A DNA stretch of 64,000 bases from Halorubrum salinum. Lineage in GTDB: Archaea; Halobacteriota; Halobacteria; Halobacteriales; Haloferacaceae. The translations under genes and the position numbers were made by a program. Numbering within the stretch: position 1 is the first letter of the stretch; every line of letters starts with the position of its first letter. The stretch is from positions 248,001 to 312,000 of the forward strand of contig NZ_JANHDO010000002.1 of assembly GCF_024494575.1 (NCBI RefSeq), written 5' to 3'. The notes below the pieces were generated by a model that worked only from the letters and a program-made list of their open reading frames with translations, had not been told where the DNA came from and made no database searches. This document shows positions 39,206 through 56,119 of this stretch, one piece after another.

Positions 39206-39817
39206 ATGAGCGAACTCGACGACGACCTCCGCGTGTCCGCCTGCGAGCGCTGTCCGGCGCTCGTCGAGTCCCGGACTCGGATCGTCGACGGCGTCGGCCC
39301 GACGGACGCCGACCTGCTGTTCGTGGGCGAGGGGCCGGGAGCGAACGAAGACGAGCGGGGGGAGCCCTTCGTCGGGCGGTCCGGCGACGTGCTCGACGAG
39401 GCGCTCCGCGACGCCGGACTCGCGCGGGCAGACGTGCGCATCACGAACTGCGTCCGGTGTCGGCCGCCGGACAACCGCGACCCGACGGGCGAGGAACTGG
39501 CGAACTGCCGCGGCTACCTCGACGCCGAGATCGACCGCCTCGCGCCCGACCTGATCGTGACCCTCGGAAAGGTCCCGAGCGAGCACCTGCTCGACCGGTC
39601 GGTCGCGATCACGTCGGAGGCGGGCGAGGTCGTCGACGCCCGGATCGCGGACGCGTCGCGCCGGGTGCTCCTCTCCGTCCATCCGGCGGCGACGCTGTAC
39701 GACCGGAGCCAGCGCGAGGGGTTCTTCGAGGGGATCGCACTGGCCGCGGAGGTCGCCGGCGTCGGCGACGCGACGAAATCGGGCGGTGACGGTCAGTCGC
39801 GCCTCGGCGAGTTCTGA
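39206..39817 (+). CDS. Uracil-DNA glycosylase, family 4
   Basis: Removes uracil from DNA. The 203-residue protein has the Fe-S cysteines at C13, C16, C85 and C101 (with C82 nearby), motif 1 GEGPGANEDERGEPFVGRSG at 41-60 and motif 2 as HPAATLY. The extreme C-terminus QSRLGEF fits a PIP-box for PCNA. ATG 39206 is preferred; another in-frame ATG lies nine codons upstream at 39179. Confidence 0.94.
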   Translation: MSELDDDLRVSACERCPALVESRTRIVDGVGPTDADLLFVGEGPGANEDERGEPFVGRSGDVLDEALRDAGLARADVRITNCVRCRPPDNRDPTGEELANCRGYLDAEIDRLAPDLIVTLGKVPSEHLLDRSVAITSEAGEVVDARIADASRRVLLSVHPAATLYDRSQREGFFEGIALAAEVAGVGDATKSGGDGQSRLGEF

Positions 39818-45464: not shown

Positions 45465-46163
45465 CTACGCGTCTTTCGCGCCCTTCACCGTCTCGCGGAC
45501 CGCGTCGACGCCCTCGTCGTGGAGCAGATCGCCGACGACGACGACGTCACTGTGTGCGGCCATCTCGTTCGCCGACTCGTAGTCGTGAATGCCGCCGCCG
45601 TAAAACAGGGTGGCGTCGTCGAGCGCGTCGTGGGCGGCAGCGACCTTCTCGGTATCTCCGAACATCCCCGAATACTCCACGTAGACGATCTCTTGGCCGA
45701 ACATCCGCTCTGCGATCTTCGCGTAGGCCGCGACGTCGTCCGCCGCGAGGTCGCAGTTCGCCTCCGTCAGCTGTGCGACCGAGGCCTCCGGGTTCAACAC
45801 GATGTACGCCTCGGTGTGCGTGCGGTCCCAGTCGAGGTCGTCGATGCGGACCCACTCTTTGTGCGCACCGGTGATCCAGAACGGGCCGCCGGCGTTGAAC
45901 ACCGTCGGGATCAGGTAGCCGTCGAGGGCGGGCGAGTCGATGACCACGCCCGGATTCGACGGTTCCTGGTACAGCGGCACGTCGTACTCGGCCGCGGCGT
46001 CGACGACCCGCGTCATCTTCTCCGCGGTGACGTCGAGGGTCCCGCCGATCTCGATCGCGTCGGTTCCGGTCCGGCAGACGTCCTCGAAGGTCTCCCCGTC
46101 CCGAAGCTCCTTGTCGGGATCGACTTTCAGCACGTGATCCCAGTCGTCCCACGGATTGCTCAT
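45465..46163 (-). CDS. Geranylgeranylglyceryl phosphate synthase
   Basis: Makes the first ether bond of archaeal lipids from sn-glycerol 1-phosphate and GGPP. The 232-residue TIM barrel shows [39 protein letters not shown], the glycerophosphate-binding VEYSGMFGD and [12 protein letters not shown], and VVVVGDLLH. Size and motifs fit group I archaeal GGGPS. Convergent with ribE (33 bases). Confidence 0.95.
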
Positions 46164-46256: not shown

Positions 46257-46285
46257 TTATATACTAGGCCGCGGCCAGCCTCCGC
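46257..46285 (+). promoter_or_regulatory. Pilus-cluster promoter element, copy 1
   Basis: TTATAT (46257-46262), six-base spacer, CCGCGGCCA (46269-46277), then eight bases to the GTG start at 46286. The same arrangement, with identical spacing, occurs at 47430 and 51304. The element overlaps the expected promoter of a leaderless mRNA. Confidence 0.75.
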
Positions 46286-46855
46286 GTGACAGAGACACCC
46301 CGATCCGACGATCGATCGACCGGCGGCGAGTCGCTCGCGATAGACGAGCGGCTCAGCGCCGTCGAACGGGCGCTCACCGGGTCCGACGCCGCGGTGGCGG
46401 ACGTGACAGACGGCGCGGAGGCGGCCGCCGAGCGACGGGCGATCGGCTCGCGACTGTCCGATCTCGAGGCGCGCGTCGAGGAACTGGAGGCGGCGACGCA
46501 GGCGCTTCGGGGATACGCCGGCGCGGTCCGCGCTGTGAACGCCGAAGTCGAGCGACGGGCGGACCTCGCGCTCGCCCGATCGAGCCGCGGTCAGCGCTCC
46601 GACGACGCGCAGGGAGAGCCGGCGGCGGGCTCGGAGCCGAGAGCGGAGGTGCCGACGCCGCCGGCGCTCGACGCCGCCGTGCCTGCCGACCCCGGAAGCG
46701 AGGGGAGCGCCGCCCGGCTCGACGGGCCTCGGTCTCACGGTCGCGCGGGCGGATCGGATGCGGCGGACGGATCCGGTCCGGCCGGCGACGATGACGAGAG
46801 CGACGGGACGCCGTGGAGCCGCGACGCGCTGGACCGCCTCCGTGAGACGCTGTAA
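46286..46855 (+). CDS. Coiled-coil protein of pilus cluster (DUF7310-like)
   Basis: The 189-residue protein has no membrane segment. A coiled coil spans about residues 17-95 (IDERLSAVERAL, RLSDLEARVEELEAATQALRGYAGAV, VNAEVERRADLAL), followed by a Gly/Ala/Asp-rich disordered tail ending in a short helix WSRDALDRLRETL. It matches a haloarchaeal family that I recall as DUF7310, found with type IV pilus-like ATPases. It probably bridges or regulates the machine. First gene of unit 1, behind the shared promoter element. Confidence 0.75.
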   Translation: MTETPRSDDRSTGGESLAIDERLSAVERALTGSDAAVADVTDGAEAAAERRAIGSRLSDLEARVEELEAATQALRGYAGAVRAVNAEVERRADLALARSSRGQRSDDAQGEPAAGSEPRAEVPTPPALDAAVPADPGSEGSAARLDGPRSHGRAGGSDAADGSGPAGDDDESDGTPWSRDALDRLRETL

Positions 46856-46891
46856 CGACCCGACGGTCCTCCGAGACGCGTCGCGATCTGC

Positions 46892-47425
46892 GTGGCCGAT
46901 GCGGACGAACCGGTCGAGCCGGTCGGGACGACGAGTCCGACCGGTCGGATCGCCGTGATCCGAGTCGTGTTGACGGTCGCCGTCGCCGCCGCGCTCCTCG
47001 CCGCGTCGATGCCCGCCTTGGAGACGGCCCGTGTCACCACGACGGCGGAGCGGCTCGACTCCGAGGTGGACCGGATCGAGCGGGCGACGGCGCGCGTCGT
47101 CTCCGGGTCGATCGCGGTCGAAGATCCCTCGCTCGCCGCTCGCGCAGGCATGACCGTCCGCGCTCCGAGCGGTGTCACGGCGGCCACGATCCACCGGCTC
47201 GCTCTCGTCGAGGTCGACGGCCCGCGGCCCGACTCCCGCATCGCGTTGCGCTACCGACCCGCCGGCGGACGCGACCGGTACCTCCCTCTCCGCGTCGACG
47301 CCGTCCCCGCGAAGATCGACCTCGTCACCGGCGTGATCGACCTCCGCCCGGGCGGCGAGAGCAGGCTCGAACTCCGGTATGTCGACGACGGCGGGCCGAC
47401 GGTTCGGATAACCCGCGTCGGGTGA
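46892..47425 (+). CDS. Single-TM pseudopilin-like protein (DUF7311-like)
   Basis: 177 residues from a GTG start: a polar N-terminus (1-19), one TM helix (about 20-40, RIAVIRVVLTVAVAAALLAA) and directly after it an amphipathic helix (ETARVTTTAERLDSEVDRIERA), as in TadE-like and pilin proteins, then a beta-rich extracellular part. Second gene of unit 1. The role as minor pilin is inferred from topology and neighbours. Confidence 0.75.
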   Translation: MADADEPVEPVGTTSPTGRIAVIRVVLTVAVAAALLAASMPALETARVTTTAERLDSEVDRIERATARVVSGSIAVEDPSLAARAGMTVRAPSGVTAATIHRLALVEVDGPRPDSRIALRYRPAGGRDRYLPLRVDAVPAKIDLVTGVIDLRPGGESRLELRYVDDGGPTVRITRVG

Positions 47426-47429
47426 GGCT

Positions 47430-47458
47430 TTATATTCGATCCCGCGGCCACGGCCGCC
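47430..47458 (+). promoter_or_regulatory. Pilus-cluster promoter element, copy 2
   Basis: TTATAT (47430-47435), six-base spacer, CCGCGGCCA (47442-47450), eight bases to the ATG at 47459. It drives the secretion ATPase and platform genes; the TATA begins only five bases after the stop of the gene upstream. Confidence 0.75.
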
Positions 47459-49426
47459 ATGACATTCGATCGCTCCGCGTTCTCGCGTCTCGGTGGGGGG
47501 TCGCTCCGCTCGCTTCCGTGGGTCGAGAGCGACGCGCCCAGCTGTCGGTGCGACCCGGCGTTCAGAGAACCGATCGGGACCGGTGTCGACGACCGCGTCG
47601 TGCTCGCCGTCGACGCCGACGAGTGTCCCGGTGGCGGCGACCTCGCCGCCAGTCCCGACTGCCTCTCGACAGTGGTCGCGGCGCTGACGGACCGCGACGC
47701 TGACGTGATCCGGACGCACCACGGCGGGAGAGAGCGGACGTACGCGGGCCGCGCCGCCGCGTGTCTGCTCGCCGCCGGTCGGTTCCGCGAGCAGGTCGCG
47801 TTCCATGAGACGCGGCTCGCAGACCGGGTGTGTCGAGACCCGGTCGGGGCCGCCCGCGAGGCCGACGGTCGCGCTGGCGCGCCGAGGCGGATCGCCGCCG
47901 AATCCGGGCTGTCCGAGGTGGTCGCGGGCGCTGACGAGACCGGTGACGTGCTCCGCGCACACGCCGGGCCGCGGATCGCGGCCACCCGCGTGGCGTCCGA
48001 ACCGCCGCCGCGAGCCGCGCTCGTCGATCGATGGGACCTCGACACCGGTGCGACGGTACGACTGTACGAAGGCGAAGAGGCCCTGCGGACGTATCACCTC
48101 ACGCCCCCTTCGGCCGACCTCGACGACGAGGCGATCGCGCGGCTCGCGGCGGCCAAAGACCGGCTCCTCGACGATCCGGTCGGCGGCGACCGGGCACCGG
48201 GACGGGCCGTCAGAGCGGTCGCGGTCGAGGGAGATCCGGTACCCACGCTCGTCGACGTGCTTCGGCGACACACCCGGGGATACGGCGTGTTCGAGCACGT
48301 CTTCGCAGACGACCGCGTGAGTGACGCCACGCTGACGGCACCCGTCACCGACAATCCGCTCCGCGTGGTCGTCGACGGGGAACGCTGTCGCACGAACGTC
48401 CGGCTCCCCCCGGAGGGTGCGGCCACGCTGGCGTCTCGGCTTCGACGAACGAGCGGGCGGGGGTTCTCCCGCGCCAGTCCGACGCTCGACGCGACGCTGG
48501 AGACGGAGGCTGGTCGGGTCCGGGTCGCAGCGACGACCGCCCCGGCGAGCGACGGACTCTCCTTCGCGTTCCGCCGAGGTGACCCAGACGCGTGGACGCT
48601 CGCACGGCTCGTCGACGTCGGGACGATCACGGCCGACGCCGCGGGGCTCGTCTCCGTCGCCGTCAAGCGGGGCGTGACCGGTCTCGTCGCGGGCGGCCGC
48701 GGTGCCGGGAAGACGACCGCGCTCGGCTCGCTCCTCTGGGAGCTTCCGTCCGCGACTCGGTCGGTCCTCATCGAGGACACGCCGGAGCTACCGGCGGCCG
48801 CGCTGGCCGCCGCCGGTCGCGACGCTCAGCGACTCCGCGTCGGCGACGGTGCCGAGCCCTCACCGAGCGAGGCGGTCCGGACCGCGCTGCGGCTCGGGGG
48901 CGGTTCGATCGTGGTCGGCGAGGTTCGCGGCGAGGAGGCACGGGCGCTGTACGAGGCGATGCGCGTCGGCGCGACCGGCGAGACGGTGCTCGGAACGATC
49001 CACGGAGAGGACCCGGCCGCCGTCAAGGAGCGCGTCGTCACGGACCTCGGGGTTCCGGCGTCGTCGTTCGCTTCGACCGACCTCGTCGTGCTCCTCGACG
49101 ACTGCGAGGTCGACGTGATCGCCGAAGTCGTCGACCGCGACGGCGACGCTCAGTTCGAGCCGCTGTACGAGCGGACTGCGACGGGACTCGCGCCGACCGG
49201 GCGGATCGACCGCGGCGAGAGCCGACTGGTCGGCGCGCTCGCCGCGCCGGACGAGTCGTACGCGGAGGTCAGAACGGTGATCTCCCGGCGAGCGGAACGC
49301 GTCGCGACCGCGGTTCGGCGGCGACGGCTGGCACCGAGCCGGTACGCCGCCGTCGACGTCGCCGACCGCGACACCGGCGCATCCGGCCGCGACGCCGACG
49401 CTCCGGACGGCGGTACGGCCCGATGA
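47459..49426 (+). CDS. Type II/IV secretion system ATPase
   Basis: Hexameric assembly motor of a type IV pilus-like system. In the 655-residue protein the N-terminal domain (1-280) is haloarchaea-specific, with several Cys near 29-57. The RecA-like domain has Walker A GGRGAGKTT at 412-420 (Lys418), an Asp box around VLIEDTPELP, Walker B GGSIVVGEVRG and the His box TGETVLGTIHGE. Compared with archaellum ArlI it is longer at the N-terminus. The ATGA overlap with the next gene shows coupling to the membrane platform. Confidence 0.93.
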   Translation: MTFDRSAFSRLGGGSLRSLPWVESDAPSCRCDPAFREPIGTGVDDRVVLAVDADECPGGGDLAASPDCLSTVVAALTDRDADVIRTHHGGRERTYAGRAAACLLAAGRFREQVAFHETRLADRVCRDPVGAAREADGRAGAPRRIAAESGLSEVVAGADETGDVLRAHAGPRIAATRVASEPPPRAALVDRWDLDTGATVRLYEGEEALRTYHLTPPSADLDDEAIARLAAAKDRLLDDPVGGDRAPGRAVRAVAVEGDPVPTLVDVLRRHTRGYGVFEHVFADDRVSDATLTAPVTDNPLRVVVDGERCRTNVRLPPEGAATLASRLRRTSGRGFSRASPTLDATLETEAGRVRVAATTAPASDGLSFAFRRGDPDAWTLARLVDVGTITADAAGLVSVAVKRGVTGLVAGGRGAGKTTALGSLLWELPSATRSVLIEDTPELPAAALAAAGRDAQRLRVGDGAEPSPSEAVRTALRLGGGSIVVGEVRGEEARALYEAMRVGATGETVLGTIHGEDPAAVKERVVTDLGVPASSFASTDLVVLLDDCEVDVIAEVVDRDGDAQFEPLYERTATGLAPTGRIDRGESRLVGALAAPDESYAEVRTVISRRAERVATAVRRRRLAPSRYAAVDVADRDTGASGRDADAPDGGTAR

Positions 49427-51231
49427 CCGATCCGAACGGATCGGCGGGCGCTTCGACACGGGTGTCCGCGGAACGCGACGACGAGGCGGGATCGCCGGAA
49501 CTCCGCCGATCGCTCTCGTTTCTCGGGTGGAACCGCCCACCGGAAGCCGTGATCGCGATCGGAAATCGGTCGGGGATCGTCGTCGGCCTCGTCGCCGCGC
49601 TCGTCGCTCTGCTCGCCCTCGGGCCGGCAGCGAGCGGACTCGCCGGACTCGTCGCTGGGCTCGGCGCGACGCACGCCGTCCACCGAGGACCGGTGTGGAT
49701 CGCCTCGCTCCGCCGAACTCGAGCGCTCGGAGCCGCGCCCGGACTCGTCGGGCGCCTCGTGTTGCGGATGCGGCTCGACCCCTCGACGGAACGCGCGGTC
49801 CAGTTCGCCGCCCGGACCGGAAACGGGCCCTTGGCGGACGCACTGTCCCGTCACGAGCGGGGGAGCGCAGACGTCCCGACGAGTGGGCTCCGGGCGTTCG
49901 CCCGCGAGTGGCAGCCTTGGTTTCCGGCCATCGACCGCGCCGCAGCGCTCGTCAGAACCGCGGCGTCGGCACCGGCAGAGCGACGGGGGCGGTGTCTCGA
50001 CCGGGCCCTCGAGGCGACGATCGCCGGAACGACGGATCGGCTCGCCGCCTTCGTCGGCGAGGTTCGCGGCCCGGTCTCCGCGCTGTACGCGTTCGGCGTC
50101 CTCCTTCCGCTGGCGATGATAGCGCTGTTGCCCGCGGCCGCGGCGTCCGGCGTTCCGATCGGCCCGGGCGTCGTCACTGGGTTGTATCTCGTCGCGCTGC
50201 CCGCCGGCCTGCTCGCCGCGTCCGGATGGCTGCTCTCGCGCCGCCCGGTCGCGTTCGCCCCGCCGGCGATAGGGAGCGATCACCGGGACGTTCCGAGTCG
50301 CGGCCCGCACGCCGTGGTGCTCGGAGTCGGAACCGGTGTCACGGCGGCGGTGGCGGCCGCGTTGGGAGTCGCCCGATGGGCGGCACCCGTGGCGGGGATC
50401 GGCGTCGGAGTCGGCGTCGCGCTGCTCGTCTCCGTCCGCGCCCGCCGCTCTGTGCTCGCGGACGTGCGTGCGGTCGAGCGAAGCCTCCCAGACGCGATGA
50501 CCGTGATCGGCGGCGACGTCGCCGAGGGCGTCTCGGTCGAGGCCGCGGTCGCGAACGCGGGCGAGCGGATCGACGACGCGACCGGCGAGCTGTTCGAGCG
50601 CGCCGGCCGTCGGAGCGACGCGCTTCGCGTCGGGGTGCGAGAGGCGTTTCTCGGCCGCGGCGGGCCCGCCGTTGCGGTCCCGTCCCCGCGAGTCAACGGG
50701 GCGGTCGCGCTCCTCGCCGTCGCGGCGAGAGAGGGTCGTCCCGCCGGCGACGTCCTGCTCGAATTGGCAGACCAGTTAGAAGAGCTCCGCGCGCTCGAGG
50801 CCGACGCACGTCGACAGCTCGCGACCGTGACGGGAACGCTGACGAACACCGCAGCCGTGTTCGCTCCGCTCGTCGGTGGAGCGACGATCGCGCTCGCGAC
50901 CGGGATCGACACGGTCGACGTCACGACGGTCGGAGCCGGGGCCGCTGCGGGTGCGGACGCGCTCGGATCCGGCGGCGTTCCGGCGGACACTGCGGGACCG
51001 TCCGTGGGGTCCGGGACCGAGCCGAGGGCGTCGTCGGCGCTCGCGGTGCCGGTGCTCGGCCGGATCGTCGGCGCGTACGTCCTGGTACTCGCGGGACTGC
51101 TCACCGCACTCGCGACGGGGCTCGAGCGGGGGTTCGACCGGACGCTCGTCGCGTATCGGATCGGGATCGCCCTGCCGACCGCGACGGCGACGTACCTCGT
51201 CTCCTTCCTCGGAGCCGGACTCCTGTTATAA
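49423..51231 (+). CDS. Type II secretion F/TadB-TadC-like platform protein
   Basis: Polytopic membrane platform of the pilus machine, 602 residues with about eight or nine TM segments. Two T2SSF-like halves can be seen: the first has a cytoplasmic domain (LRRTRALGAAPGLVGRLVLRM onward, about 85-200); the second begins near VRAVERSLPDAMTVIGGDVAEGVSVEAAV, the typical TadC/FlaJ sequence, and ends with TM helices at the C-terminus. It overlaps the ATPase gene by four bases. Equivalent to fused TadB+TadC. Confidence 0.9.
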   Translation: MTDPNGSAGASTRVSAERDDEAGSPELRRSLSFLGWNRPPEAVIAIGNRSGIVVGLVAALVALLALGPAASGLAGLVAGLGATHAVHRGPVWIASLRRTRALGAAPGLVGRLVLRMRLDPSTERAVQFAARTGNGPLADALSRHERGSADVPTSGLRAFAREWQPWFPAIDRAAALVRTAASAPAERRGRCLDRALEATIAGTTDRLAAFVGEVRGPVSALYAFGVLLPLAMIALLPAAAASGVPIGPGVVTGLYLVALPAGLLAASGWLLSRRPVAFAPPAIGSDHRDVPSRGPHAVVLGVGTGVTAAVAAALGVARWAAPVAGIGVGVGVALLVSVRARRSVLADVRAVERSLPDAMTVIGGDVAEGVSVEAAVANAGERIDDATGELFERAGRRSDALRVGVREAFLGRGGPAVAVPSPRVNGAVALLAVAAREGRPAGDVLLELADQLEELRALEADARRQLATVTGTLTNTAAVFAPLVGGATIALATGIDTVDVTTVGAGAAAGADALGSGGVPADTAGPSVGSGTEPRASSALAVPVLGRIVGAYVLVLAGLLTALATGLERGFDRTLVAYRIGIALPTATATYLVSFLGAGLLL

Positions 51232-51303
51232 CGCGGCGGCCGGACGCCGCGACCGCTCGGTCGTCCCGGAGCGCCCCGCCTGTCTCAGACGTTGCCCGGC
51301 ATC

Positions 51304-51332
51304 TTATATATCGAGCCGCGGCCAGCCGACCC
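51304..51332 (+). promoter_or_regulatory. Pilus-cluster promoter element, copy 3
   Basis: TTATAT (51304-51309), six-base spacer, CCGCGGCCA (51316-51324), eight bases to the ATG at 51333. Together with copies at 46257 and 47430 it marks the start of the third unit of the cluster. Confidence 0.75.
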
Positions 51333-51830
51333 ATGTTCGAGACGAACGTCGACGCCACCTACGCGTGGCTCGGACTCGCTCTGGTGAGCGTCGCGGCGGC
51401 GGGCGTCGCGGCGACGCTTCCGGCGTCTCCGCCGCCGGACGCGAGCGGTGTGGCGCACACGATCGACTCGGTCGCCGACGGTCCCCACCCGGCGCGAGCC
51501 GAACACGGCCTCGCGGCGAGCCAGATGCGACTCACGGAGCGATCGATCGGACTGCGGAGCGACGGCGGCGTCGGATTCGCGTCGTTACACGGTCCGAAAG
51601 TGACACCCGTGCCAGCGGGACACGCCGACCGGAATCGGACCGACGGAATCAACCGACTTCGCCCCGTGCTCGACGGCGTTCCACCGTCGTCGGCGTTCGA
51701 CGATCCGGACGCCTTCGCGGCCGCGGCGTCCCGCGCCCGCGCCGCCGCCGGAGCGTGGCGACCGGCACCGGAGCGGCTCACCGTGCGGCGGGTTCACTAC
51801 GGAGGTGTCCATGTCACGCTCGTCGGGTGA
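51333..51830 (+). CDS. Single-TM pilin-like protein (DUF7283-like)
   Basis: The 165-residue protein has ten residues before a TM helix (about 11-30, AWLGLALVSVAAAGVAATLP), then an extracellular Ala/Arg/Pro-rich part and a small C-terminal beta segment (ERLTVRRVHYGGVHVTLVG). No Cys. It is first in unit 3 and overlaps the next gene by 20 bases. Probably a pilin or minor pilin; N-terminal processing by PibD is not obvious from sequence. Confidence 0.75.
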   Translation: MFETNVDATYAWLGLALVSVAAAGVAATLPASPPPDASGVAHTIDSVADGPHPARAEHGLAASQMRLTERSIGLRSDGGVGFASLHGPKVTPVPAGHADRNRTDGINRLRPVLDGVPPSSAFDDPDAFAAAASRARAAAGAWRPAPERLTVRRVHYGGVHVTLVG

Positions 51831-52296
51831 ACGGTTGTTCGGCCGCGACGGTTCGACGGGACGCACGGAGACGGACACCGCCGGTACGGACGGCCGGTCC
51901 ACGGCCCGAGCCGCGGTCGAGCCGATCGCCGCGCTCGTCGCGGTTGTGGCCGTCGGTGCGGCGCTCGGACTGTACGTCACCGCCATCGACGACGCGACGC
52001 CGGCACCCGAGCGAGCGGTCGCCGAGGCGACGCTCGATCGGATCGAGCCGGCGGTCACCGCCGGCGGCGTCGTGGTCCCGAACCGACTGGGCGGGGTGCC
52101 GCGCCTTCGGTACGCGGCCACGGTCGCGATTCGCGCCGACGGTGAGACGTGGCGCATCGATTCCGGACCGGGAGCACCGGAGTTGAACGATCCGTTCGCG
52201 TCCGATCGGATCGACACCGCTCGACGGACCGTGACCGTGCGGACCGCGCCGGGACGGAACGTCCGCGGCACGCTGCACGCGGCGGTGCGGCGATGA
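51811..52296 (+). CDS. Pilin-like protein with class III-type signal (DUF7285-like)
   Basis: 161 residues from ATG 51811: a polar, disordered leader (1-32), then TARAAVEPIAALVAVVAVGAALG, where a basic residue plus Ala precede a hydrophobic helix with Glu at its start. This resembles archaeal type IV pilin signal peptides cleaved by PibD. The rest is a beta-rich domain. It overlaps its upstream neighbour and is followed by an ATGA overlap, so all unit-3 genes are coupled. Confidence 0.78.
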   Translation: MSRSSGERLFGRDGSTGRTETDTAGTDGRSTARAAVEPIAALVAVVAVGAALGLYVTAIDDATPAPERAVAEATLDRIEPAVTAGGVVVPNRLGGVPRLRYAATVAIRADGETWRIDSGPGAPELNDPFASDRIDTARRTVTVRTAPGRNVRGTLHAAVRR

Positions 52297-52880
52297 CGAG
52301 CACCGTGCTTGACGTAACGGTGATGCTCCTTTGCGTCTCGGCGAGCGTCGTCGCGCTCTCGTCCGGCGGGCTCCCGAACGGCGCAGGAACGCCGACCGCG
52401 AGCGAGAGCGCGGACCGCCTCGCGACGGAGACGGTGACGGTGACCTACGCGGCCCCGGAAGCTCCGGGCGAAACCCGAACCGTTCACGCGACACGCGCGG
52501 AGTTTCTGGCGCTTCTTGTCGCCGGTCAGGCAGCATCCACGGACGACGACGCGTCCGCGGATGACGGCGTGCCCACCGACCAGAACCGGCCCGTAGATAC
52601 GTTCGAGAAACGGGCGCTGGCCGCGGTCCAGACGGGGCTCGACGACCGAACGCGGATCGACGCCCGGGTGCGAGCGACGAGGCCGGCCGATCGGTCCTCG
52701 GAGCCGGGCGAGACTAACGGCACCACGCCGGCGGAGGCGGACGGAACCCCCACCGCCGTCACCGTCGGTAGGCCACCGCCGCGGAGCGCCGACACCACGG
52801 TCGCCGTGATCACTCACCCCGTTCCGGACGTCGCCGCTGCGCCGGACGACCACGTCCGAATCGTGGTCAGGCGGTGGTGA
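52293..52880 (+). CDS. Single-TM pseudopilin-like protein (DUF7284-like)
   Basis: The 195-residue protein has an immediate TM helix (about 5-22, VLDVTVMLLCVSASVVAL), then a Thr/Glu-rich extracellular part with a central disordered stretch and a C-terminal strand region (TTVAVITHPVPDVAAAPDDHVRIVV). It resembles TadE/TadF-type minor pilins in topology. ATG 52293 overlaps the upstream stop by ATGA; the downstream gene overlaps by GTGA. Confidence 0.75.
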   Translation: MTSTVLDVTVMLLCVSASVVALSSGGLPNGAGTPTASESADRLATETVTVTYAAPEAPGETRTVHATRAEFLALLVAGQAASTDDDASADDGVPTDQNRPVDTFEKRALAAVQTGLDDRTRIDARVRATRPADRSSEPGETNGTTPAEADGTPTAVTVGRPPPRSADTTVAVITHPVPDVAAAPDDHVRIVVRRW

Positions 52881-55800
52881 CCGTGCGAAACCGACGCGTC
52901 CGGGACGACTCCGGCCGGTGGTCGCCGATCGACCGGCGGCGTCGGGTGTTCGTCGCCGACGAACGGGCCCGCGTGCCGTTCGCGCTGATCGGCGTCCTCC
53001 TTTTGGTGTCGAGTTCGGCGTACGCCGCGGGCGTCGCGGATCAGGGACTGATCGCCGAGGACCGAAGCGTGGAGCGGGCGGTCGAGCGAGTGGACGCCGA
53101 TTCGACGGCGGCGCTCCGGGTCGCAGCGCGCGAGACCGCACACGCCGCGGCCGCGGAACCCGTAACCGCACCGCCGGACGCCGACGGCGGCGCTGGAGCG
53201 GCGGTACGCGACGGATCGGCGTTCGAGGACGCGTTCCGGATCCGACTCGCGATCGCCGGGAGTGCGGCCCTATCGAACGTCACGGCCGACGTGGGTCCAG
53301 TCACCGCGAACGCGTCGCTCCCGCCGGTCGACGAGGCGAGCGACCTCGTCGACGCACGCGAGCGCGTGCGAATCGCTCCGGCCGCGAACGGAACCGCGGT
53401 GCGCGCGACGTTCGAGGGGGTGACCACGACCGCGGCGCGGAACGGCCGAACCGTCGCGGAGGAGACCGCGGACCGAACCGTCGTCGTGGCGGTGCCGACC
53501 CTCTCGGCGCACGAGCGGACGGAGCGGTTCGAAGCCCGACTCGACCGAGGGCCGGTCGAGGGGCCGGGCCTCGGACGGCAGATCACGGCGAGCCTCTATG
53601 CGACCACGTGGGCCCGCGGATACGGCCAGTACGGCGGGGCACCCATCGAGAACGTGCTCGCGAACAGACACGTCGAGCTGTCGACGAACGCGGGGATCGT
53701 TCGGATACAGCGGGACGTCTTCGGCGCGAGCGATCCGGCGGCGCGTGGCGGCGTCGCTCGCGCGACCGCCCGAACGGGACTCGTGGACTTTCTCGAACCG
53801 ACCGGCGTCCACGAGGCGGCGTGGACTGACGCCGTGCTCTCGGCACCCGCGCCGCAGACCGAGGGCGCGTCCGACGGAGAACGGGCGGTGTACGACCCCG
53901 AACGCGACAGGGAGGCCGAACGGGCGTCGGTGTCGGTCGGTCACGCCGCCGACGTCGCGGCGGTCGCGGTCCACGACGATGCCGCGGCGATCGCCGACCG
54001 CGCGTATCGCGTGACTGCGACGCTTCGAACGTCGACGATCCAGACGGTCGACGGCGGGCGTCTCGACCCTCCCCGTCCGGACTTCGCCGAGGACTGGGTC
54101 CTCGATGACGTCGAGCGCGACGAGCGGACGCCGGTCGTCCGCGGAAGCGGCGTCCCGCGCGGGACGCCGACCGGAATCACGGAGCCGGGAGAGCGGCGCT
54201 CGTTCGGCGACGCGACGCGGTCCGTGTCTGTCGAACGGACCGCGAAGGCTCGGTGGGAGCGGACGGTCGTCCACGAGGGAGCAGACGGGACCATAACCGG
54301 GGTAAGCACGCACAAGACGACGACGTACGACCGGACCACGGACCGGTACCGGGTCCGCGTCGACGTCACGGGACGGCACGCGCCGACCGACGATGCACCC
54401 GACCGGCCCGCGAAGACGTTCGGAGCGGGCGGTCGGACCGACGGCCCCGATCTGCGCGATACGCCGGCATCCGCTCGCGGTGAACTCGGTGTCGACACCG
54501 ACGCCGGCGTCGACCGTATCGCGCGCGACGCGATCGAACGTGGGACAGTCAGGCGATCCGCGACCGTCTACGGCGGGCGGTCTGACGCCGATCGCGCGCT
54601 GATCGCGGACGACGTCTCCGCGCTGTCGGCAGCGGTGCGAGATATCGAGACGTCGGCCTCGATGGAGGCCGCCGCGGTCGGCGAGGCCGAACCGTACGCC
54701 GACCTCGCCGACGCGGTCCGCGACCGCCGCGGCGGTCTGATCGACGCGCCTCGAACGTACGACGGTGCCGCGGACCGCGCCCGAACGGCCGCGCGCGCTG
54801 CGTTCGTCGACGCCGTCGTCGCGGAGCTCGAGTCGGCCGCAGACGATCGGCGATCCGCGACGACGGGGTTCCTCGACCGCGTGAACGGCGCGTTCGACGG
54901 GCCGCCGGTCGGCGACGTGATCGCGAGCCGCGAGGCCGCACGGGACCCCGGGACCTACACCGTGGCCGAGAGCGGTCCGGGCGGAGCGGTGACGTTCGCC
55001 CCGACCGGCGGTCCGGGGTACCTCCCGCGAACGGCGGTCGACGGGGCGGACGTCGAGGGGCTGAACGGCACGACGACGCGGCCGCTCGCAGTCCGGAACG
55101 TCAACTACGTCACCGTCCCGTACGGCGACGTGTCGAGCGGCATCGTCGACCGGCTGCTCGGGACGGGCGACACGGTTCGGGTGGGGACCGCCGGGCGCGC
55201 GCTGCGTCTGGCCGACGACGCGCTCGCCGAGGGAGACGACCCGGACCTGCGGGCGGACCGGGACGCGCTCGCCGGACAGGTATCCGGATCGCTGCGAGCC
55301 GTCGACCGAGAGCTCGCGGTCGCGCTTCGCACGCAGACGTCGCTTTCTGCGACCCAGCGCCGTGACGTACTCGACCGCGTGGCGACCCGGTACGACTCGG
55401 TCGGCGATCGGGCCGTCGCGGTCGGCGACGGTACGTATCCGGACCGCGTCGCGGCCGAGGCCGCGGCGGTCGGAACGCTGTCGGAGGCCGCGGAGACGGG
55501 GCTCGCGGCGCGGCTCCGGGTACAGACGCGGACCGCGGCCGGTCGCGACGCGGTCCGGATCCCCGCGCGGTTCGTCGAGGGGCCGACGGACGGCGCTCGG
55601 CTGCTGCTCCGTGACCGGATGGAGAAGTCCATCGAAGCCGAGATGGCGGCGGCCGGCGACCGCGCCGCGGAGGCGGTGAGAGAGAAGGCCGTCGAGGAGT
55701 ACGGCGAGGAGGCGGTCGAGAAGTGGGAGCCGAAGCCGGTCCGACGCGTCGGCGCGGGGCTGCCGGTCGCTCCCGTCCCCGGCTACTGGGTGGCGACGGT

Positions 55801-56119
55801 GAACGCGTGGCGGGTGCAGGTGCGCGGCGAGTACCCGCGGTTCGCGCTGCGAGCCGACGTGGGAACGCCGGACAGTCGCTTCGAGTACGTTCGCGAAGAG
55901 GGAACCGTCGCGGTCGACGTCGGCGGGACCTCGATTCCGATCGGAGAGACGGAGCCGGTGCGCTTCGAGACGGGGACCGTCGTCGTGGTCGCCGTGCCGG
56001 CCGGTCCGCCGGGCGTCGGCGACGTCGACGGAGTCCGCGACGAGACGTCGAGCGGGTGGCCGTGTCCGGGACCGATGGACGCCACACCGGACGCAGACGA
56101 TGGCTGTGCGGTGTCGTGA
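52877..56119 (+). CDS. Giant surface protein of pilus cluster (DUF7286-like)
   Basis: The 1080-residue protein has a basic cytoplasmic N-terminus (1-31), one TM helix (about 32-52, RVPFALIGVLLLVSSSAYA) and a roughly 1000-residue extracellular region of repeated Ala/Arg/Asp-rich helices and beta segments, with predicted N-glycosylation sequons (for example NVTAD and NGTT). The position and anchor recall TadG or a pilus-tip adhesin. GTG 52877 is chosen for the overlap with the preceding stop; GTG 52874 and 52883 are alternatives. No catalytic motif recognised. Confidence 0.8.
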   Translation: MTVRNRRVRDDSGRWSPIDRRRRVFVADERARVPFALIGVLLLVSSSAYAAGVADQGLIAEDRSVERAVERVDADSTAALRVAARETAHAAAAEPVTAPPDADGGAGAAVRDGSAFEDAFRIRLAIAGSAALSNVTADVGPVTANASLPPVDEASDLVDARERVRIAPAANGTAVRATFEGVTTTAARNGRTVAEETADRTVVVAVPTLSAHERTERFEARLDRGPVEGPGLGRQITASLYATTWARGYGQYGGAPIENVLANRHVELSTNAGIVRIQRDVFGASDPAARGGVARATARTGLVDFLEPTGVHEAAWTDAVLSAPAPQTEGASDGERAVYDPERDREAERASVSVGHAADVAAVAVHDDAAAIADRAYRVTATLRTSTIQTVDGGRLDPPRPDFAEDWVLDDVERDERTPVVRGSGVPRGTPTGITEPGERRSFGDATRSVSVERTAKARWERTVVHEGADGTITGVSTHKTTTYDRTTDRYRVRVDVTGRHAPTDDAPDRPAKTFGAGGRTDGPDLRDTPASARGELGVDTDAGVDRIARDAIERGTVRRSATVYGGRSDADRALIADDVSALSAAVRDIETSASMEAAAVGEAEPYADLADAVRDRRGGLIDAPRTYDGAADRARTAARAAFVDAVVAELESAADDRRSATTGFLDRVNGAFDGPPVGDVIASREAARDPGTYTVAESGPGGAVTFAPTGGPGYLPRTAVDGADVEGLNGTTTRPLAVRNVNYVTVPYGDVSSGIVDRLLGTGDTVRVGTAGRALRLADDALAEGDDPDLRADRDALAGQVSGSLRAVDRELAVALRTQTSLSATQRRDVLDRVATRYDSVGDRAVAVGDGTYPDRVAAEAAAVGTLSEAAETGLAARLRVQTRTAAGRDAVRIPARFVEGPTDGARLLLRDRMEKSIEAEMAAAGDRAAEAVREKAVEEYGEEAVEKWEPKPVRRVGAGLPVAPVPGYWVATVNAWRVQVRGEYPRFALRADVGTPDSRFEYVREEGTVAVDVGGTSIPIGETEPVRFETGTVVVVAVPAGPPGVGDVDGVRDETSSGWPCPGPMDATPDADDGCAVS

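Follow-up and report, generated by a model that had tools for sequence, protein, structure and literature searches.

The DNA analysed here (the window) is a stretch of 64,000 nucleotides from Halorubrum salinum, and it includes a pilus-like gene cluster arranged in three runs: DUF7310-DUF7311 (unit 1), a T2SSE ATPase with a PilC-like protein (unit 2), and DUF7283-DUF7285-DUF7284-DUF7286 (unit 3). The original prediction placed the arrangement TTATAT-N6-CCGCGGCCA-N8-start at the head of each of three transcription units. Exact matches were recovered at 46257, 47430 and 51304, all on the + strand, and each precedes a same-strand gene run as proposed. The distance from the start of the TATA box to the start codon (GTG 46286, ATG 47459 and ATG 51333, respectively) is exactly 29 nt in all three copies, again as predicted. 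The elements and genes are as follows.

46257..46285 (+): element copy 1, head of unit 1; TATA 46257-46262, GC element 46269-46277, N8
46286..46855 (+): DUF7310 coiled-coil protein, gene 1 of unit 1 (PF23991, E=1.8e-25)
46892..47425 (+): DUF7311 protein, gene 2 of unit 1 (PF23993, E=1.1e-33)
47430..47458 (+): element copy 2, head of unit 2; TATA 47430-47435, GC element 47442-47450, N8
47459..49426 (+): type II/IV secretion ATPase (PilB/TadA/CpaF-like), unit 2 (T2SSE, E=2.2e-18)
49423..51231 (+): PilC-position membrane protein, unit 2 (from position and hydrophobic composition; overlaps the ATPase gene)
51304..51332 (+): element copy 3, head of unit 3; TATA 51304-51309, GC element 51316-51324, N8
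51333..51830 (+): DUF7283 protein, gene 1 of unit 3 (PF23954, E=2.2e-51)
51814..52296 (+): DUF7285 protein, single TM, unit 3 (PF23956, E=2.7e-26)
52293..52880 (+): DUF7284 protein, unit 3 (PF23955, E=2.9e-7)
52874..56119 (+): DUF7286 protein, large, last of unit 3 (PF23957, 1062.6 bits)

The cluster contains the secretion ATPase expected of a type IV pilus or Tad-like machine (T2SSE, E=2.2e-18). The best NCBIfam model for this ATPase is TadA-type TIGR03819, which scores below its cut-off, and the nearest PDB entries are archaeal GspE-type and CpaF structures, with CpaF and FlaI structures matched. No match was found in Pfam or NCBIfam for the PilC-position membrane protein. By position, the DUF7285 protein may be a pseudopilin or TadE-like protein, and the DUF7286 protein is probably surface-exposed. 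The DUF7310 mRNA is presumed to be leaderless with a GTG start. The true start of DUF7311 is probably GTG 46955, as judged by comparison with orthologues in two other genomes (G060 and G088), which begin MIRVVLAVLL. A PcrB-family gene (window 45465-46163, – strand) is divergent from unit 1, and the element is absent from its upstream sequence.

When up to three mismatches were allowed, the window contained 5 element matches, compared to 0.40 expected from dinucleotide shuffles (largest shuffle count 4).

Conservation and geometry of the element

The upstream regions of orthologous clusters were compared across 28 named Halorubrum loci, and the element was found to be kept ahead of most unit heads. 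It lies at –29/–30 of DUF7310 in 15 of the 23 starts that were located, of PilB in 27/28 loci, and of DUF7283 in 27/27 loci. In the same 28 loci it never precedes the internal genes DUF7311, PilC, DUF7285, DUF7284 and DUF7286, which served as a negative control and whose best upstream match always carries at least 5 mismatches in 15 positions. A natural experiment is provided by G060 and G088, in which DUF7311 is separated from DUF7310 and bears an element of its own. Beyond Halorubrum, most of 20 clusters from other haloarchaeal families keep the element at their unit heads, and DUF7283 is preceded by it order-wide. These comparisons support the view that the element is functional-looking cis-DNA common to all three units.

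Outside Halorubrum, five target sets comprising 185 sites independently reach one consensus, CCGAAGG-TTTAARTnCGAAnCCGCGGCCA. This consists of a BRE-like CCGAAGG, a TATA box (TTTAAAT/TTATAT) and then CGAAnCCGCGGCCA, which ends 8-9 nt before the start; the GC element CGCGGCCA lies at –17 to –9. The start used for DUF7382, the Cas4-like gene and units 1 and 2 outside Halorubrum was the best-fitting in-frame one, which inflates their scores. The NucS-like and DUF7283 profiles were made without such a choice of start, and the NucS-like, DUF7283 and RNA promoter profiles outside Halorubrum agree closely. With the two halves positioned independently, 108 sites could be placed uniquely, and 102 of them have a TATA-to-GC-element spacing of 14 nt. 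Since this spacing is fixed while the distance from element to start codon splits between two adjacent values, the GC element is tied to the TATA box.

Some of this geometry is ordinary: a TTWT-type TATA box about 29 nt before a presumed leaderless start is present here, and the usual haloarchaeal layout is a TATA box near –29 with a leaderless start, the published basal elements being BRE CGAAA, TATA TTWT and WW at –10 (PMC4983044). The proposal that the GC stretch is just the usual look of a leaderless core promoter in a GC-rich genome is nevertheless very improbable: WW at –10 occurs in 1/185 sites, its place being occupied by CCA, internal and unrelated starts are without the element, at most 0.4% of ATG/GTG codons score ≥13, and the reversed-pattern control gave 0 matches in all genomes.

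Targets beyond the pilus-like cluster

The arrangement had not been noticed before other genes here. The rest of the window is indeed without copies, but the genome has more. A fourth exact copy is located upstream of a gene for a pilin-like DUF7382 protein (C2:350627, – strand), the HerA-like ATPase gene divergent from it has a weaker copy, and looser 29-nt copies precede a NucS_N zinc-ribbon gene, a gene for a PLD-type secreted protein and a Cas4-like gene. The DUF7382 proteins share a conserved N-terminal segment, (A/G)IEGLPxRLVIAxVVGV, and gave no match to Pilin_N.

The genus was scanned with a TTAWRT form of the pattern that included the start codon and allowed at most one mismatch, using the reversed pattern as a control. 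Matches were obtained in 38 of 39 Halorubrum genomes (1-8 sites each; reversed control 0), and a few gene families recur repeatedly among the sites. Across the order, 29/59 genomes matched, with the reversed control at 0 in every genome. The element is found upstream of NucS_N zinc-ribbon, DUF7382 and Cas4-like genes across the order. HerA-like and DUF7857 genes were not queried in other families, yet they score highly in an all-start scan of the fetched loci, in which 0.4% of ATG/GTG codons score ≥13, an upper bound that includes the regulon members themselves. The PLD-type secreted protein was observed as a target only in Halorubrum. Domains present among the targets include HerA-like (PF01935), Cas4-like, NucS_N and PLDc_2. 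Viral contigs gave 30 pattern matches, none with the RNA described below.

In total, the composite element precedes at least six gene families outside the cluster plus a multi-copy RNA family, so the predicted regulator dedicated to the cluster is not upheld. The motif had been expected to be missing from unrelated genes if the prediction was right: its presence there removes cluster specificity and leaves a regulon standing, as its targets form a limited group that is found repeatedly, unlike background. The original interpretation is therefore partly supported, in that the element marks putatively co-regulated units, which extend beyond the pilus cluster alone.

Several further observations concern individual targets. 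A recurring one in Halorubrum (L172, L181, L187, L193, L205) is a small protein whose N-terminus looks disordered and which has a conserved segment of membrane-like character, LSAVxPxxxxAVxGxxxGSxGRR; a Pfam search with one member gave no match. Single-genome sites before genes for a MinD/ParA-like ATPase (L444, G074), HNH-type proteins (L438/L445, G082 and G089) and a type IV pilin with Pilin_N (L194, G008) possibly represent further members. Single-genome matches at DUF4870, TctA and HNH may be due to chance and were left out of the counts. In four genomes (G091:C3:199112, G020:C1:589279, G058:C15:6442 and G090:C1:1189160) the Cas4-like match continues past an in-frame stop, which could reflect decay, sequencing error or alignment beyond the true end. 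On the Haloterrigena turkmenica plasmid pHTUR04 (16677-25144, L511), a search with a composite query built from several DUF7382 proteins located a DUF7382-like protein adjoining a secretion ATPase, a membrane protein, an AAA ATPase and an HTH gene; this cassette is a second version of the machine, one that may be mobile.

A multi-copy pseudoknotted RNA behind the same element

At many element sites there is no protein-coding gene: a single codon and then a stop follow the start codon, and a hairpin comes next. The loop of this hairpin forms a pseudoknot with a strand further downstream, which ends in CTGTTCGCC. The resulting RNA is ~88 nt long, with up to 15 copies per genome, and nearly all copies have the promoter element. 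In the genome of the window (G000) there are five copies, all outside the window:

C1:19746-19832 (+): RNA copy
C1:814869-814956 (–): RNA copy
C2:422086-422170 (+): RNA copy, begins GTG ACG TAA
C1:467891 (–): RNA copy
C1:741866 (–): RNA copy, start codon lost (ACG)

A covariance-model match within the window (39493-39576, – strand, E 0.0013-0.005) lacks an upstream promoter element and was set aside as chance.

Sixteen Halorubrum copies align cleanly and show covariation in both helices. A covariance model was built from the hairpin alone, leaving the pseudoknot outside the model, and it matched 18/24 Halorubrum genomes and, across the order, 32/59 genomes, 26 of them with E<1e-3. The pseudoknot, which had been proposed from Halorubrum, was then assessed in 85 copies from outside that genus, in which 93.2% of cells are paired, double changes occur in all 7 pairs, and the score is 0.467, compared to 0.227 in shuffles (0/500 reach the score) and ≤0.154 in slid controls. 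The hairpin is paired at 97.5% in these 85 copies, a figure that is fitted to the model. Minimum-free-energy folding of single copies gave z near 0 in 4/5, and is uninformative here, the dominant interaction being a pseudoknot within GC-rich sequence. A search against all 4227 Rfam covariance models gave no match to the RNA up to E=1; the alignments thus describe a candidate RNA family that is previously uncatalogued and missing from Rfam.

The 5′ end of the RNA follows the form RTG-NNN-stop. Among the 85 copies from genera other than Halorubrum, GTG or ATG opens 83, and in 81 the third triplet is a stop codon (TGA 75, TAA 5, TAG 1); the middle triplet takes 17 different forms. The departures include a copy whose stop comes a codon later (ATG ACC TGC TGA), a copy whose stop comes a codon earlier (GTG TGA, counted in the 81 via a following TAG), and a Halorubrum copy that reads GTG ACC TGT TGA. 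Since TAA replaces TGA in some copies, a real stop codon appears to be kept rather than a fixed sequence. We infer that the 5′ end is a leaderless start-X-stop mini-ORF.

In three Halorubrum loci (L174, L182, L191), one RNA paralogue lies directly downstream of uvrC and convergent with it; other paralogues there adjoin CheF-like, YigZ-like and MoeA-like genes (names assigned by eye). The copies look like fixed paralogues and not a mobile element, because their positions are kept between species.

To compare the distribution of the RNA and the machine, the latter was scored as DUF7283 or DUF7382 in a sample of 59 genomes of the order. Both are present in 24, the RNA only in 2, the machine only in 8, and neither in 25 (Fisher p=1.7e-7, uncorrected for phylogeny). 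The two RNA-only genomes are represented by assemblies that are 86% and 63% complete. Most Halorubrum species without the RNA keep the element ahead of the cluster, and some genera keep it solely before the NucS-like and Cas4-like genes. The latter genera and the 8 genomes having the machine without detected RNA indicate that parts of the regulon are separable.

A putative order-wide regulon and its relatives

The explanation that we consider likely is an order-wide regulon, in which a TATA-locked composite element across Halobacteria is read by one factor acting inside the pre-initiation complex. The three window sites belong to a composite promoter element that is in use across Halobacteria, alongside those of DUF7382, the divergent HerA-like ATPase, the NucS_N zinc-ribbon protein, the Cas4-like nuclease, DUF7857, the PLD-type secreted protein and the hairpin-pseudoknot RNA. 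Transcription would start on the start codon, giving leaderless mRNAs, and one dedicated factor (a TFB paralogue, adaptor or repressor) would recognise the GC element relative to the TATA box within the pre-initiation complex, switching the whole set together. A single factor of uniform specificity is an assumption, given that the element is degenerate outside Halorubrum, where the CCGCGG core occurs in 36/185 sites.

One concrete form of this explanation is the recruitment of a specialised TFB/TBP pair, resembling a sigma-factor regulon. Haloarchaea encode several TFBs, and the GC element is TATA-locked and asymmetric, overlaps the stretch contacted by TFB and is accompanied by a modified BRE. 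No TFB is linked to the regulon, however, and a protein other than a TFB is equally possible; we place this form at somewhat below an even chance. The NucS-like protein was also considered as the regulator. Its gene carries the element nearly everywhere, but this candidate was set aside because, at 45/59 genomes, it is too widespread for co-occurrence to be informative.

In the original prediction, a dedicated protein would bind the GC element ahead of the pilus units and block RNA polymerase. The position of this element between TATA and start, and its retention at unit heads only, are as a repressor operator would have them. Nevertheless, unrelated families and RNAs bear the same element, which refutes the cluster-specific form, and a palindromic operator is not upheld, since the 10-bp palindrome GGCCGCGGCC of copy 1 occurs in 1/185 sites outside Halorubrum, with no conserved dyad. 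Repressor sites usually tolerate shifts in spacing, while the spacing to TATA here is rigid, and the fixed TATA-GC spacing is no less consistent with recognition in the pre-initiation complex than with a repressor. A cluster-specific repressor is thus improbable, while a repressor reading widened to the whole regulon is viable.

Returning to the order-wide regulon, its gene set resembles in kind the Ups/Ced set of Sulfolobales (a pilus machine and a HerA-like ATPase), where pilus assembly and DNA-import genes including CedB are co-induced by DNA damage (PMC11868833); CedB is a HerA/VirB4-like ATPase (PMC11868833, and in part general background). The haloarchaeal set is described by its gene content, and differs in having an element between TATA and TSS and a multi-copy RNA family. 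Because of this likeness, we hypothesize a role of the regulon in DNA uptake or exchange; this is its likeliest theme, although a doubtful one that is assigned through guilt by association. A fuller version, which we regard as rather unlikely, is a DNA-import or exchange regulon that includes regulatory RNAs of a new class, present as 1-15 pseudoknotted paralogues per genome with leaderless start-X-stop 5′ ends, at which ribosome initiation and immediate termination would be functional, co-expressed with the co-occurring pilus machine.

Haloferax volcanii has five pilB-C sets (PMC6491452), which like unit 2 pair a T2SSE ATPase with a membrane protein in the PilC position, and it also carries DUF7283 and a DUF7382 match. 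Compared to haloarchaeal type IV pilus loci, the present cluster carries DUF7310/7311/7283-7286. The CdrS regulon of H. volcanii is similar in that a conserved DNA motif is common to ~18 sites, but 15/18 of these are found 41-110 nt ahead of the TSS and hence upstream of the promoter (PMC8406309), as against –17 to –9 here, and an identity of the two was rejected. Ribosome-associated sRNAs of H. volcanii are, by description, likewise intergenic: s194 has 97 nt and such sRNAs bind ribosomes (PMC6104027), and ribosome occupancy is also seen for sRNAs that are not translated (PMC12482152). Neither a start-X-stop 5′ end nor a pseudoknot family in multiple copies was found described. The element and the RNA were likewise not encountered in the open-access literature searched, a weak sign of novelty.

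The order-wide regulon would give a common context to the unstudied DUF7310/7311, DUF7283-7286, DUF7382, DUF7857, NucS_N-zinc ribbon and Cas4-like genes, through a cis-element that is testable in genetically tractable hosts. It also adds a structured RNA family, absent from Rfam, whose 5′ end resembles a two-codon ORF without a leader. Should DNA uptake be the role of the regulon, it would offer a handle on DNA exchange in haloarchaea.
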